Part shown: piece by piece, positions 17,815 through 22,110 of the stretch
Position numbering within the stretch: position 1 is the first letter of the stretch
Layout: every line of letters starts with the position of its first letter
NCBI RefSeq assembly: GCF_001747105.1
Contig: NZ_MDGQ01000005.1
Coordinates: 1,798,001 to 1,862,000, forward strand
DNA: 64,000 nt
From: Roseivirga misakiensis
Lineage (GTDB): Bacteria; Bacteroidota; Bacteroidia; Cytophagales; Cyclobacteriaceae
Direction of reading: 5' to 3'
The notes under the pieces: generated by a model
What the model was told of the DNA's origin: nothing
The model's database searches: none
What the model saw: only the letters and a program-made list of their open reading frames with translations
Program-made: the position numbers and the translations under genes

Positions 17815-19479
17815 TTAAACTTCAGCCAAATATTCATGGACAAACTTGATCGCCATGGCACCCTCTCCGACTGCCGATGCTACCCTGTTCATGGCGCCTG
17901 CTCTGACATCTCCAGCGGCCAATATTCCAGGAGTGCTGGTTTCCAAAAGGAACGGTTCTCTTTCCTTTTTCCAGAGTTTTTTGTGATCAGACTCTTTTTG
18001 TAGATCACGTCCAGTGATGACAAAACCACGGTCATTTTTAAGTATACCATTGCCTGTCCAATCGGTATAAGGTTTAGCACCAATGAAAATCAACAGCGCT
18101 CCTGCTGGTTTCTTCACAATTTCACCAGAATCTAGGTTTTTCAACTCAACGCACTCCAGATTTCCATCACCAACGGCTCCGTCAATAACCGTCCTGGGCA
18201 CCAATTGGATGTTTTCTGTACCATCAATTTGGTCTATTAGGTACTGACTCATACTTGATGAAAGGTCTGGTTTTCTGATCACTATATGTACATCGCATGC
18301 AAATTTGGCCATGTACATGGCGGCTTGACCAGCTGAATTCCCACCTCCCACGATGTAGACATTTTTGCCTCTACAAGAGTTAGCCTCTGTGGTAGCAGCG
18401 CCATAATAAATCCCTCGGCCAGTAAAGTCATCAATACCACGAGATTCTAGTTTTCTGTATTGAACACCTGTTGTAATAATGACGGCCTTGGTGTTAATCT
18501 TTTCACCACCTTCTAGACTTACAATCTTATAATCGTCTTGCGTTTCTATGCCAGTAACAGTTCGTGGCGAAAGAAACTCAATACCAAAGCGCTTGGCTTG
18601 CGTTATCGCGCGATGTGTTAAATCTGCACCAGATAGGCCCTTTGGGAAGCCAAGATAGTTTTCGATTCTAGAGCTTGTTCCTGCTTGCCCGCCTGGAGCA
18701 TGTTTTTCGATCATAAGGGTCTTTAAGCCTTCCGATCCTCCGTAAACGGCGGCAGCCATTCCGGCAGGACCTGCACCCACTATAACCACGTCATACATTT
18801 CTTCAGCTACGGTGGTCTGCAAACCAATCTTATTGCCAAGGTCGGTCATGGAAGGATCCTTTAAATGTGATCCATCCTCAAAGTAGACGACTGGTAAGTC
18901 ACTTCGATCTATCTCTGCCAAATCTAGCAGTTCTTGGCCTGCTTCTTCGGTTTCTATATCAAGCCACTGATATGGCATCAAATTCCTAGAGAGGAAATCT
19001 TTGATATCGTGAGATTTTGGAGAGTATTGGTATCCAACAACCCTAATGCCTTTGAAAACTGGAATGTGATTGATTTGCCATTCATCCAGCAGATCATTCA
19101 ATGTTGGGTAGAGCTTTTCTTCAGGCGGATCCCAAGGCTTATTGAGGTAATAGTCAAGTTGAACGTCATTAATTGCCTTAACCGCTGCTTCAATATCCGA
19201 GTATGCAGTGAGCAGTACCCGTTTAGCCTCTGGATAGAGTTCCTTGGCTTTCTCCAAGAATTCTACACCCGTCATTTCAGGCATTCTTTGGTCCGATAGA
19301 AAAAGTGCTACATCCTCCCCCTTTTGCTTCAGCTCCTTTAAAGCATCTAGTGCCTCATGTGCTGAAGTGGTGCTCATGACACGGTAATCTTTTCTGTATT
19401 CTTTTCTTACATCTCTTCTGATGGCCGCCAAGACTTGTTCATCATCATCGACAGTAAATATAATCGGTAGTTTTGCCAT
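17815..19479 (-). CDS. receiver–glutaredoxin-like–thioredoxin-reductase-like fusion lacking redox cysteines
   Basis: 554 residues in three parts. Residues 5-130 are a CheY-type receiver with the acidic pocket D11-D13, phospho-acceptor D63 (LSDQRMP), T91 and K114. Residues 140-222 look like a glutaredoxin fold, with Y-S-P-K-S (152-156) where CPYC would be and DLPVVYFEDG as the cis-Pro strand. Residues 228-554 are a thioredoxin-reductase-like flavoprotein with a FAD site (VVIVGAGPAG), an NADPH site (VGGGNSAGQAA) and a C-terminal FAD motif (GILAAGDVRAG). The usual CxxC is replaced by YYGAATTEA (358-366). Database records name this class fused response regulator/thioredoxin-disulfide reductase, but disulfide reductase chemistry is not supported here. 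It starts 8 bp after the stop of its partner kinase. Confidence 0.92.
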   Translation of the reverse strand: MAKLPIIFTVDDDEQVLAAIRRDVRKEYRKDYRVMSTTSAHEALDALKELKQKGEDVALFLSDQRMPEMTGVEFLEKAKELYPEAKRVLLTAYSDIEAAVKAINDVQLDYYLNKPWDPPEEKLYPTLNDLLDEWQINHIPVFKGIRVVGYQYSPKSHDIKDFLSRNLMPYQWLDIETEEAGQELLDLAEIDRSDLPVVYFEDGSHLKDPSMTDLGNKIGLQTTVAEEMYDVVIVGAGPAGMAAAVYGGSEGLKTLMIEKHAPGGQAGTSSRIENYLGFPKGLSGADLTHRAITQAKRFGIEFLSPRTVTGIETQDDYKIVSLEGGEKINTKAVIITTGVQYRKLESRGIDDFTGRGIYYGAATTEANSCRGKNVYIVGGGNSAGQAAMYMAKFACDVHIVIRKPDLSSSMSQYLIDQIDGTENIQLVPRTVIDGAVGDGNLECVELKNLDSGEIVKKPAGALLIFIGAKPYTDWTGNGILKNDRGFVITGRDLQKESDHKKLWKKEREPFLLETSTPGILAAGDVRAGAMNRVASAVGEGAMAIKFVHEYLAEV

Positions 19480-19487
19480 GTGTGTTA

Positions 19488-20885
19488 CTAAGCATTAATA
19501 GGGAAACAAAATTCAAATTGGGTTCTTCCGGGCTTCGAGTTCAGCCTGATATGGCCTTTATGTCTATCAACAATGTTTTTAACCACCTCAAGTCCAAGTC
19601 CAGTGCCTTTGCCCACATCTTTTGTGGTGAAAAATGGCTCAAAAATTCGGCTTTGTATGTCTTCTGGTATTCCCGGACCAGAATCAGTGATGTAAACCAT
19701 TAGGTTTTCTGCATTCGTGGCAGTTGTCAACTCAAGCGTACCACCTTCTTCCATGGCATCCAGCGCATTGTCAATCACGTTTGTCCAAACCTGGTTTAAC
19801 TCGCCTGAAACTGCTTTTATATTTGGCAGATCATCTTCAAGGTCTTCTACCAAATTGACATTATTCTTTTTGAACTTATGATTCAAAATTGTAATTGTGC
19901 TGTGTAGTCCTTCGTGCACGTTAGTTGGTTCGAAATCTGTCGAACGATCCATATGTGAATAGTCTTTCACAGAGCTGACTAGTTTGGATATTCGGTTAGA
20001 TGCTTCTTTGATTTCACCAACCATTTTTTCTGTTGTCAGTACATTTTCAACCCAGGTAAGTACCGAAGGAAATGTCTCTGTGCCAAGCATTTGTTTCATT
20101 CCTTCCAAGTCGTTGTCACAGAAGCCGTATTCGGCGAGCGTTTCGCTTAACATATAACAATCTCCAAAACCGTTATCATCGAGCCAGTCGGTCAATTCGT
20201 CTTCCCGGTTAGTTCGTTGCATCAGAGACTCGCTCTTGTTTATCCCATCTTTGATCTTACCAAAAAGGAGTGCATTCACCTCATCTACCTGTTCATTGGT
20301 TACTTTCATGGAAATAACCTTCTTGAACTTTTCTGGCACATGAGCCAAATGACTCTGTAGTGATTCGGAACTGCGAACTATGGCCGCAGCAGGATTATTT
20401 AACTCATGCGCAAGGCCCGCAGAGAGTTTTCCAAGCGCCATCAATTTCTCGCTTTGCTGTTGAGACTTCATACTACTTCTTACCCGATCAGTCATCATAT
20501 GCACAAGTACTTCGGTAAAGTCTTGGCATTCGCAAATCATAGCATGGAAGTAAGATTTATTGAGTGTGAACATTCTCGAATCTTGCATTACTCGGCCATT
20601 AGCCGATGAGGATTGAGCTCGGCTGTATGGTAGTGCACCAGATATATCTCCTCCGTTGATCCGTCCTATTTCCATGTACTGGCCATTTCGTTCCATCATG
20701 AAACTTATACTGCCCTCGAGCATAATAATTAGGCTATCGATAGAATCGCCCCGGTTAAAGAAATTTTCACCCACTTTTACCTCAAAAAGTTCGCCTCGAT
20801 CTACCACCCATTCGATCTGATTGCGTGATACTCCATCAAGCGAAGGAAACTTAGAAATCTCGTCAATAATGGTCTGCTTATCCAT
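19488..20885 (-). CDS. cyclic-nucleotide-binding-domain histidine kinase
   Basis: 465 residues, no membrane segment. Residues 1-135 form a Crp-like cNMP-binding domain (VGENFFNRGDSIDSLIIMLE; INGGDISGALPYSRA). Residues 145-220 and 300-330 hold the dimerisation region with H-box H160 (GLAHELNNPAAA). The HATPase domain has an N-box (NVIDNALDAME), G1 (DSGPGIPE), F-box (FFTTKDVG) and G2 (GTGLGLEVVKN). The phosphorylation partner is almost certainly the receiver at the N-terminus of the next gene. The input is probably a soluble ligand or redox state. A 7-bp inverted repeat (20892-20898 with 20913-20919) lies just upstream of the start and may be an operator. Confidence 0.92.
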   Translation of the reverse strand: MDKQTIIDEISKFPSLDGVSRNQIEWVVDRGELFEVKVGENFFNRGDSIDSLIIMLEGSISFMMERNGQYMEIGRINGGDISGALPYSRAQSSSANGRVMQDSRMFTLNKSYFHAMICECQDFTEVLVHMMTDRVRSSMKSQQQSEKLMALGKLSAGLAHELNNPAAAIVRSSESLQSHLAHVPEKFKKVISMKVTNEQVDEVNALLFGKIKDGINKSESLMQRTNREDELTDWLDDNGFGDCYMLSETLAEYGFCDNDLEGMKQMLGTETFPSVLTWVENVLTTEKMVGEIKEASNRISKLVSSVKDYSHMDRSTDFEPTNVHEGLHSTITILNHKFKKNNVNLVEDLEDDLPNIKAVSGELNQVWTNVIDNALDAMEEGGTLELTTATNAENLMVYITDSGPGIPEDIQSRIFEPFFTTKDVGKGTGLGLEVVKNIVDRHKGHIRLNSKPGRTQFEFCFPINA

Positions 20886-20976: not shown

Positions 20977-22110
20977 TTAAGACGCTGAAATAGCTTTCAA
21001 GTCTTCTATCATCAATTCCGCTACTCGTTTTGAAGCACCAACGCCACCTAACTTAGTTTCAAGTTCTTCGTAATCGGTAAGAATTCTATTTCGAGCCTCA
21101 GGTGCTAGAATGGCCTTTAACTCCTTGGTCATTCGTTGTTCATTCAAGTCTGATTCAATCAACTCGGTTACCGCCCTCCTATCTAGAATTAGGTTAACCA
21201 TACAAATATGGTTTATGCTGATGACCCCTTTTAAAACATAGAAAGTGACTAAACCTGGCTTGTAACAGACTACTTGAGGCACTTTGAACAAAGCAGTTTC
21301 TAAGGTGGCTGTACCAGAAGTTACTAGTGCAGCTTTTGCATTATTCAAAATATCATAAGTCTGACCAAAAATTACTTTAACCTGTTGACTTGTATAAGCA
21401 TCATAAAGTGATTGCTCCATCGTTTCCGATCCAGCTACAACAAATTGATAATCAGGAAAGTGTTTCACAACACGGAGCATCTTTGGCAGCTTAGTTCTAA
21501 TCTCCCTTTTACGACTTCCCGGCAATAGCGCAATGATAGGCTTATCTGAAAGTTCATTTTTTTCCAAGAACTCGTTTTTATCTAATAAAGCTGGTTTTCG
21601 TTGAGCGATAGCATCTAAAATTGGGTGCCCAACATAGTCGACTTTATAACCATAAGATTCATAGAATTTCGGTTCAAAGGGTAAAATAGAAAACCGTCGA
21701 TCCGTCCAACCTTGAATCGTATGCACCCGTTTTCTTTTCCAAGCCCAGGCTTGTGGAAGGATATAATAGAAAATACGTGTTGGAAGATTTGAATTCTTAA
21801 CGAATTTGGCGATTCTCAAATTGAAACCAGAGTTATCTATTAAGATTAAAACATCGGGTTTATAAGCCATAATATCTTCTTCACAGAATGTAAAATTGGC
21901 CTTGATGGTTTTTAAATGACTAACTACAGCAAAAACTCCCATAAAGGATGTCTCACGAATATGTTTAGCGAGTTCTTGAGCTTCTTTCGCCATATTATCT
22001 CCACCCCAAACTCTAAAATAAGCGTCGGGGTCACGAAGCTTTAACTGCTTCATCATATTTGCGGCATGCATATCGCCAGAGGCCTCTCCTGCTATGATGT
22101 AGTACTTCAT
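20977..22110 (-). CDS. lpxB: lipid-A-disaccharide synthase
   Basis: 377 residues, the usual length for LpxB. Hallmarks are the N-terminal GEASGDMHAANMM, GGDNMAKE, LLPGSRKREI and the C-terminal donor-binding motif TSGTATLETALFKVPQVVCY. It joins UDP-2,3-diacylglucosamine and lipid X to make the lipid A disaccharide, a cytosolic, membrane-associated step of outer-membrane synthesis. It shows that the organism makes an LPS-type outer membrane. It is transcribed leftwards, divergent from the small secreted gene at 22202. Confidence 0.97.
   Translation of the reverse strand: MKYYIIAGEASGDMHAANMMKQLKLRDPDAYFRVWGGDNMAKEAQELAKHIRETSFMGVFAVVSHLKTIKANFTFCEEDIMAYKPDVLILIDNSGFNLRIAKFVKNSNLPTRIFYYILPQAWAWKRKRVHTIQGWTDRRFSILPFEPKFYESYGYKVDYVGHPILDAIAQRKPALLDKNEFLEKNELSDKPIIALLPGSRKREIRTKLPKMLRVVKHFPDYQFVVAGSETMEQSLYDAYTSQQVKVIFGQTYDILNNAKAALVTSGTATLETALFKVPQVVCYKPGLVTFYVLKGVISINHICMVNLILDRRAVTELIESDLNEQRMTKELKAILAPEARNRILTDYEELETKLGGVGASKRVAELMIEDLKAISAS

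Follow-up and report, generated by a model that had tools for sequence, protein, structure and literature searches.

Bacterial ZF-UBP proteins reportedly belong to a novel cyclic-nucleotide-dependent redox signalling system, a prediction made by Burroughs, Iyer and Aravind in 2011 (Mol Biosyst). The system examined here likewise brings together a zf-UBP domain, a Crp/cNMP domain and a redox protein resembling thioredoxin reductase (TrxR). At its centre is a gene pair in a 64,000-nucleotide stretch of the Roseivirga misakiensis genome (hereafter the window), in which a histidine kinase with a Crp-like sensor domain stands ahead of a fusion of a receiver (REC), a glutaredoxin-like (Grx-like) domain and a TrxR-like flavoprotein module. 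The system thus seems to have been known already in outline as a prediction. The signal of that system is reportedly a cyclic nucleotide; the window kinase is devoid of the canonical cyclic-nucleotide residues, and the genome has six class III cyclase matches. Fusions of Crp, Grx-like and TrxR-like domains, named 'cyclic nucleotide-binding domain-containing thioredoxin-disulfide reductase', belong to the same clade without a CxxC motif; unlike the window fusion, they carry the Crp domain in the chain, have no REC and have no kinase that was found nearby. Further relatives without CxxC are the TrxR-type ferredoxin/flavodoxin-NADP reductases (FNR) and YpdA.

As an architecture, the fusion is not new, and it appears to be a member of the predicted system: the same joining of REC to a TrxR-like module is named, as the 'Mycobacterium-like' REC-thioredoxin reductase combination, in a 2018 census (PMC5847659), whose passages on the combination make no statement on function, partner or CxxC. 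Thioredoxin has also been found to dock on response regulators (PMC9584953, 2022), so that, as far as that account goes, a surface of the thioredoxin fold is physically coupled to a response regulator as in the window fusion, although there thioredoxin itself acts in trans and here a thiol-less Grx-like domain sits in the same chain. Searches of the open-licence PubMed Central literature, which is limited in scope, listed no work on what the fusion does, on the clade-wide loss of CxxC or on the correlation of kinase and receiver; the role had been called little described in a preliminary description of the locus, which seems right for the biochemistry and too strong for an architecture named in 2018. 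We read the gene pair, with about an even chance of being right, as a two-component unit in which kinase and receiver would govern an NAD(P)H flavoprotein without CxxC instead of a promoter.

Clade-wide loss of both thiol pairs

Homologues were gathered from genome contigs (the best 80 of 575 loci), from 148 genomes of the window's family and from 117 genomes of an actinobacterial order, with loci of the latter taken from the best 30 and from 12 hand-picked regions. In the window, the CxxC position of the reductase module reads YYGAATTEA and, position by position, the old centre CATCD has become AATTE. The pair C..C is absent from the aligned segment in 128 of 131 distinct reductase domains (each covering at least 290 positions, shorter pieces being excluded); these 128 score 262 bits or more and come from several phyla, and the three that retain the pair score 104 bits or less. 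The preliminary description had recognized the missing dithiol and had named close homologues with an intact CxxC as what would overturn its reading, and none occurs among the 128 clade members. An artefact or a local mutation is ruled out by a motif loss common to 128/128. In a tree of 52 rows (46 hand-picked clade rows and six outgroup rows), the CxxC-less rows make up one side of a 100/100 branch and all six outgroup rows carry CxxC, so that independent losses are not favoured. Three N-terminal classes share the clade, with a REC, with a Crp domain in the same chain, or with a degenerate REC.

Having no dithiol, the module cannot act as an ordinary thioredoxin reductase. Yet the segment that replaces the lost centre is conserved, with Tyr359 in 128/128 clade domains, Glu365, the acid following the second cysteine position, in 118/128, and a single cysteine, Cys369, in 100/128, so that the former CxxC site looks repurposed rather than decayed. 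The FAD GxGxxG and nucleotide Rossmann motifs and the fold are retained, with GGGNSA intact. The HRRxxxR motif, which serves the 2'-phosphate of NADPH, reads HRRDxLR in the three CxxC rows of the reductase-domain alignment and IRKPDLS in the window, where Arg402 is its sole near-invariant remnant (127/128). NADPH versus NADH specificity is therefore not readable from the sequence, and the earlier statement that the FAD and NADPH motifs are intact holds for the FAD motif and GGGNSA and fails for HRRxxxR. From TrxB, the fusion differs in lacking CxxC and HRRxxxR, in lying on the separate 100/100 branch, and in scoring 216.6 bits on the nearest NCBIfam equivalog, TRX_reduct (TIGR01292), below its cut-off of 343.45; on the YpdA model, whose relatives lie outside the tree sample, it scores 56.3 bits.

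The middle domain is kin to glutaredoxins and mycoredoxins by sequence and fold, as had been proposed. It matches the mycoredoxin model TIGR02200 at 36.9 bits (E 3.7e-9; curated cut-off 89.5) and PDB entry 2LQO at E 4.7e-9, and the Pfam Glutaredoxin match to residues 154-203, at 17.2 bits, falls under the cut-off of 22.9. The active-site cysteine of glutaredoxins and mycoredoxins is missing, the site reading SPKS in the window, and none of 117 homologue rows has CxxC there, with a single Cys left in eight. Outside the clade, one frame (L084 4920-6194) has both CPYC and a CATC centre and is apparently a thiol-intact Grx-TrxR fusion. The receiver is complete, again in agreement with the preliminary description: D11, D12, D63, T91 and K114, which supply the acidic pair, phospho-Asp, Thr and Lys of a response regulator, are all retained in 65/65 aligned receiver homologues.

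A dedicated kinase accompanies the intact receiver

A kinase relative (match at E<=1e-50) occurs in 30 of the 148 family genomes, the identical 30 that hold the REC fusion, and in 0/118 others (Fisher 4.9e-32), as a check of co-occurrence proposed with the preliminary description would have it; by genus, kinase and REC fusion are found in 21/84. The two genes lie within 1 kb of each other in 24/30 family genomes; for the remaining six, the kinase sits on a different contig or 3.2 Mb from the fusion. All 30 REC loci fetched from the actinobacterial order have an adjacent same-strand kinase and an intact DDDTK set. Of the 12 hand-picked sister-class loci from that order, none has an adjacent kinase: eight carry a degenerate REC in which the five residues are never complete (L200, L201, L202, L204, L205, L208, L209 and L210), three carry Crp in the chain, and in one (L211) the N-terminal part lies outside the frame. 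Ten Crp-in-chain loci of the window's family (L137-L146) likewise gave no kinase match at E<=1e-10. The kinase thus follows the intact receiver and is the dedicated partner of the fusion, a status as cognate kinase that comes from co-occurrence only. This pairing is the best support for the predicted phosphotransfer from H160 to D63. A two-component flavoprotein, as first proposed, is the best reading; the NAD(P)H or nucleotide sensing suggested along with it is hypothetical.

Four REC fusions stand without an adjacent kinase. In one (L151), Pfam identifies the gene immediately upstream as Flavin_Reduct and the one behind the fusion as ATP10/redoxin-like; three (L152-L154) resemble it by eye, with the flavin-reductase-like gene further away in L153 and L154. 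Such a neighbour is a possible electron partner.

The sensor domain of the kinase, described earlier as a Crp-like ligand domain, has that fold, both by its PF00027 match (33.2 bits, cut-off 27.5) and in the beta-roll of the model, and has lost the canonical cyclic-nucleotide-binding residues, namely the phosphate-cassette Glu and Arg. Both are replaced in the window kinase (ISGALPYSRAQSSSANG) and in the other aligned Bacteroidota kinases; the GE...PR pattern is retained in several kinases of Chloroflexota and Actinomycetota (L041, L044, L045, L059, L068), and the cassette Arg is kept in 0/12 aligned Crp-in-chain relatives. A ligand other than a cyclic nucleotide is likelier for the window kinase, although the six class III cyclase matches leave cyclic nucleotides possible as its signal. 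The kinase model is fair (mean pLDDT 81.6, pTM 0.45). In it, helix 121-181 and helix 272-314 flank an insertion, absent from the preliminary description, with helices between 183 and 267, within which the conserved E228 and W234 fall. The 50 matches listed in a Foldseek search with the kinase are ordinary histidine kinases and are silent on this insertion, and inspection by eye noted no transmembrane segment.

A zf-UBP partner and its possible link to ion transport

A zf-UBP match occurs in 20/30 REC-fusion genomes against 1/118 others (p 2.1e-16), and by genus in 15/21 against 0/63; the lone other genome (G098) holds Crp-in-chain relatives. In 10 of the 20 genomes, the zf-UBP gene lies within 1 kb of the fusion. 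In the actinobacterial order, 74 genomes have both a TrxR-like and a zf-UBP match, three have the TrxR-like match only and 34 have neither, so that zf-UBP is found in 74/77 genomes with a TrxR-like match and 6/40 without. Genome size was considered as the cause of the zf-UBP co-occurrence and rejected, since within 3-6 Mb the counts in that order are 29/3/3/11 (p 7.7e-6, listed genomes only). The single zf-UBP match of the window genome (G000:C5:698420-698596; L157 3352-3633) is followed after 4 bp by a small GNAT acetyltransferase (PF14542; L157 3638-3916).

Many zf-UBP matches in the actinobacterial order sit in open frames of more than 600 amino acids. All three long frames analysed by Pfam are Na_H_Exchanger--zf-UBP fusions (L162, L163, L164), and of 20 further long frames fetched (L212-L231), 19 match exchanger and zf-UBP in one frame and one in two. 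Tiling by longest frame of eight zf-UBP regions, those of the three Pfam frames among them, gave a zf-UBP frame in L162, L163, L164 and L169 and none in L165-L168. In one genome (G246, L210), a Na+/H+ exchanger--zf-UBP gene adjoins a degenerate-REC relative, and in Bacteroidota a bestrophin gene can stand behind the fusion, directly or after zf-UBP (L015, L020, L025, L026, L027).

The arginine of zf-UBP that binds the ubiquitin tail is exchanged for Asp or Ser in these proteins; in HDAC6, R1155 and W1182 are described as holding ligands that mimic this tail (PMC10424181). Where HDAC6 has CGR, all 47 aligned zf-UBP rows (46 distinct) have an invariant CC pair, and one cysteine therefore seems surplus and the pocket Arg lost; the pair can be aligned to HDAC6 in two ways, and Arg is lost in either. 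The surplus residue is a possible redox-active or metal-site cysteine.

Proposed mechanism and rival explanations

The AlphaFold2 model of the fusion is confident (mean pLDDT 90.7, pTM 0.84). Structure-alignment rows mainly span residues 224-554, with the REC and Grx parts barely covered. The model superposes on the Lactococcus lactis enzyme at a root-mean-square deviation of 2.2 for 5mh4, titled FR (flavin-reducing), and 8.0 for 5mjk, the same enzyme titled FO (flavin-oxidising), and on the Escherichia coli enzyme at 2.3 for 1f6m, with thioredoxin, and 8.3 for 1tde, which we take to be the FR and FO conformations, respectively. As modelled, the fusion is thus closest to the flavin-reducing conformation of thioredoxin reductases, and by way of suggestion only, this conformation could be retained by a protein in which no dithiol is available to swing onto the flavin. 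FNR relatives rank below TrxB in this comparison, which is still compatible with kinship to FNR.

We propose that the Crp-like domain gates autophosphorylation of the kinase at H160, that the phosphate would pass to D63 of the fusion, and that phosphorylation might then act through the thiol-less Grx-like spacer on the conformation of the flavoprotein, switching the FAD/NAD(P)H module, so that control would run from kinase to flavoprotein. Most likely, NAD(P)H would donate hydride to the FAD of the module, which would pass electrons on to an external acceptor, on the side of the flavin where CxxC would otherwise sit. The zf-UBP partner, a domain that also occurs fused to Na+/H+ exchangers in Actinobacteria, may take part. 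A wider version of this scheme, speculative and on balance unlikely, is that a TrxR lineage abandoned thiol chemistry and came to serve as a general output module. Phosphorylation or a Crp domain in the chain would gate its NAD(P)H/flavin state, which zf-UBP would read to set Na+/H+ exchange and perhaps bestrophin channels; here the surplus zf-UBP cysteine could be the electron acceptor.

Several observations weigh against a phosphorylation-governed flavoprotein tied to zf-UBP. The co-occurrence tests take no account of phylogeny, and four of the 30 family fusions are partial or interrupted by the assembly (G009, matched over 192-509 only; G019; G042; G139). No zf-UBP match is present in 10/30 REC-fusion genomes, one of them (G057) from a congener of the window species, in the window genome the match is 1.1 Mb from the fusion, and six genomes of the actinobacterial order have zf-UBP and no TrxR-like match. 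Bestrophin lies within 0.5 kb of the fusion in only 5/30 genomes, from four genera. Cys369 could do thiol chemistry, and the conformation that AlphaFold adopts is weak evidence for the working one.

It is possible, if doubtful, that the module is a pseudoenzyme without turnover, a reduced-nucleotide sensor scaffold whose shape depends on its redox state or its occupancy by FAD/NAD(P)H, a state that receiver and zf-UBP would read or set. The absence of CxxC from every reductase domain and every Grx site examined in the clade would fit such a scaffold, as would the sister classes, in which a Crp domain or a degenerate receiver precedes the module, an arrangement to be expected if it serves in signalling; the strong conservation of Arg402, of the FAD/Rossmann motifs and of the segment in place of CxxC nevertheless goes beyond what a scaffold needs, and the flavin-reductase-like gene near the four loci without an adjacent kinase hints at electron transfer. 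If turnover does occur, oxygen could be the acceptor; the fusion would then be an NAD(P)H oxidase gated by phosphorylation, with hydrogen peroxide or superoxide as product and signal. Reduced flavin of this fold may, from general flavoprotein knowledge, react with oxygen when there is no dithiol, but no peroxidase or reactive-oxygen gene was recognized in the seven neighbour clusters listed (a weak point, as most neighbours are unannotated), and we think an oxidase improbable.

We regard it as very improbable that the fusion has remained a reductase of thioredoxin or disulfides that works through C369 or a cysteine of its partner. C369 is frequent in the clade, TRX_reduct is the nearest equivalog and the adjacent Cys pair of zf-UBP is conserved throughout; the equivalog score nevertheless stays below cut-off, no second conserved cysteine was found near C369, which is itself missing from 28/128 domains, and the window genome separately encodes a thioredoxin reductase with CAVC (L005). 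The two-component flavoprotein is the reading we retain.

Features of the window locus

The two open reading frames (ORFs), their 8 bp separation and their domains agree with the preliminary description on re-examination of the ORFs and by Pfam (Table 1). Pfam further assigns Pyr_redox_2 to residues 229-540 of the fusion and HisKA to residues 151-190 of the kinase. The genome is 4.45 Mb, and the closest named relatives in the contig scan are Roseivirga, with 86, 80 and 79% identity across the full-length fusion. The nonsynonymous divergence (dN) of the fusion from one homologue (L029) is 0.10; synonymous divergence (dS) is saturated, hence a dN/dS ratio is unobtainable. Upstream of the kinase by 91 bp and on the same strand, a gene at 20977-22110 (-) is LpxB-like (lipid-A-disaccharide synthase) by eye.

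Table 1. Coordinates of the kinase, the fusion and their parts in the window
Feature	Position	Strand	Evidence
REC / Grx-like / TrxR-like fusion, 554 aa	17815..19479	-	ORF, Pfam, AlphaFold2 model
Receiver domain, residues 7-119, D11 D12 D63 T91 K114	19123..19461	-	Pfam Response_reg, 60 bits
Glutaredoxin/mycoredoxin-like domain, residues 145-217; SPKS (153-156) for CPYC	18829..19047	-	Sequence matches, model secondary structure
TrxR-like FAD/NAD(P)H module, residues 229-553	17821..18795	-	
Segment replacing the CxxC centre, residues 358-369, YYGAATTEANSC	18373..18408	-	
Spacer between kinase stop and fusion start, 8 bp	19480..19487	.	
Histidine kinase (Crp-like sensor), 465 aa	19488..20885	-	ORF, Pfam, AlphaFold2 model
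Crp/cNMP-type beta-roll (cNMP_binding), residues 35-117; phosphate-cassette Glu and Arg absent	20535..20783	-	Pfam, alignment, model
Phospho-acceptor H160 in HELNNP	20406..20408	-	Invariant in 20 rows
Helical insert, about 90 residues (183-271), separating the DHp helix pair	20073..20339	-	AlphaFold2 model
Kinase ATP-binding domain, residues 362-463	19497..19802	-	Pfam HATPase_c, 87.1 bits

Naming and significance

Many bacteria carry genes of this clade, named 'FAD-dependent oxidoreductase' or, in a sister class, 'thioredoxin-disulfide reductase'. Among ten PLSDB rows covering at least 99% of the query, seven bear the former name, one of them also touching an 'ATP-binding protein', whereas for three no gene is listed; the 'thioredoxin-disulfide reductase' name, with 'cyclic nucleotide-binding domain-containing', stands on two partial rows among the matches listed, and a Deinococcus plasmid gene so named matches the query from residue 158. 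The earlier remark that database names say thioredoxin reductase is therefore true of these partial rows and not of the full-cover rows that have a listed gene. As the dithiol is absent clade-wide, the sister-class name predicts the wrong chemistry.

The clade offers a natural control series, from an intact REC with a kinase, through a degenerate REC without one, to Crp in the chain. If our reading is true, two-component phosphorylation would directly govern a flavoprotein, and the zf-UBP link to Na+/H+ exchangers would be a route from redox to ion balance. Should the wider scheme of a general output module also be true, Bacteroidota and Actinomycetota would share a redox-to-ion-homeostasis pathway in which a ubiquitin-reader fold serves a use other than ubiquitin.

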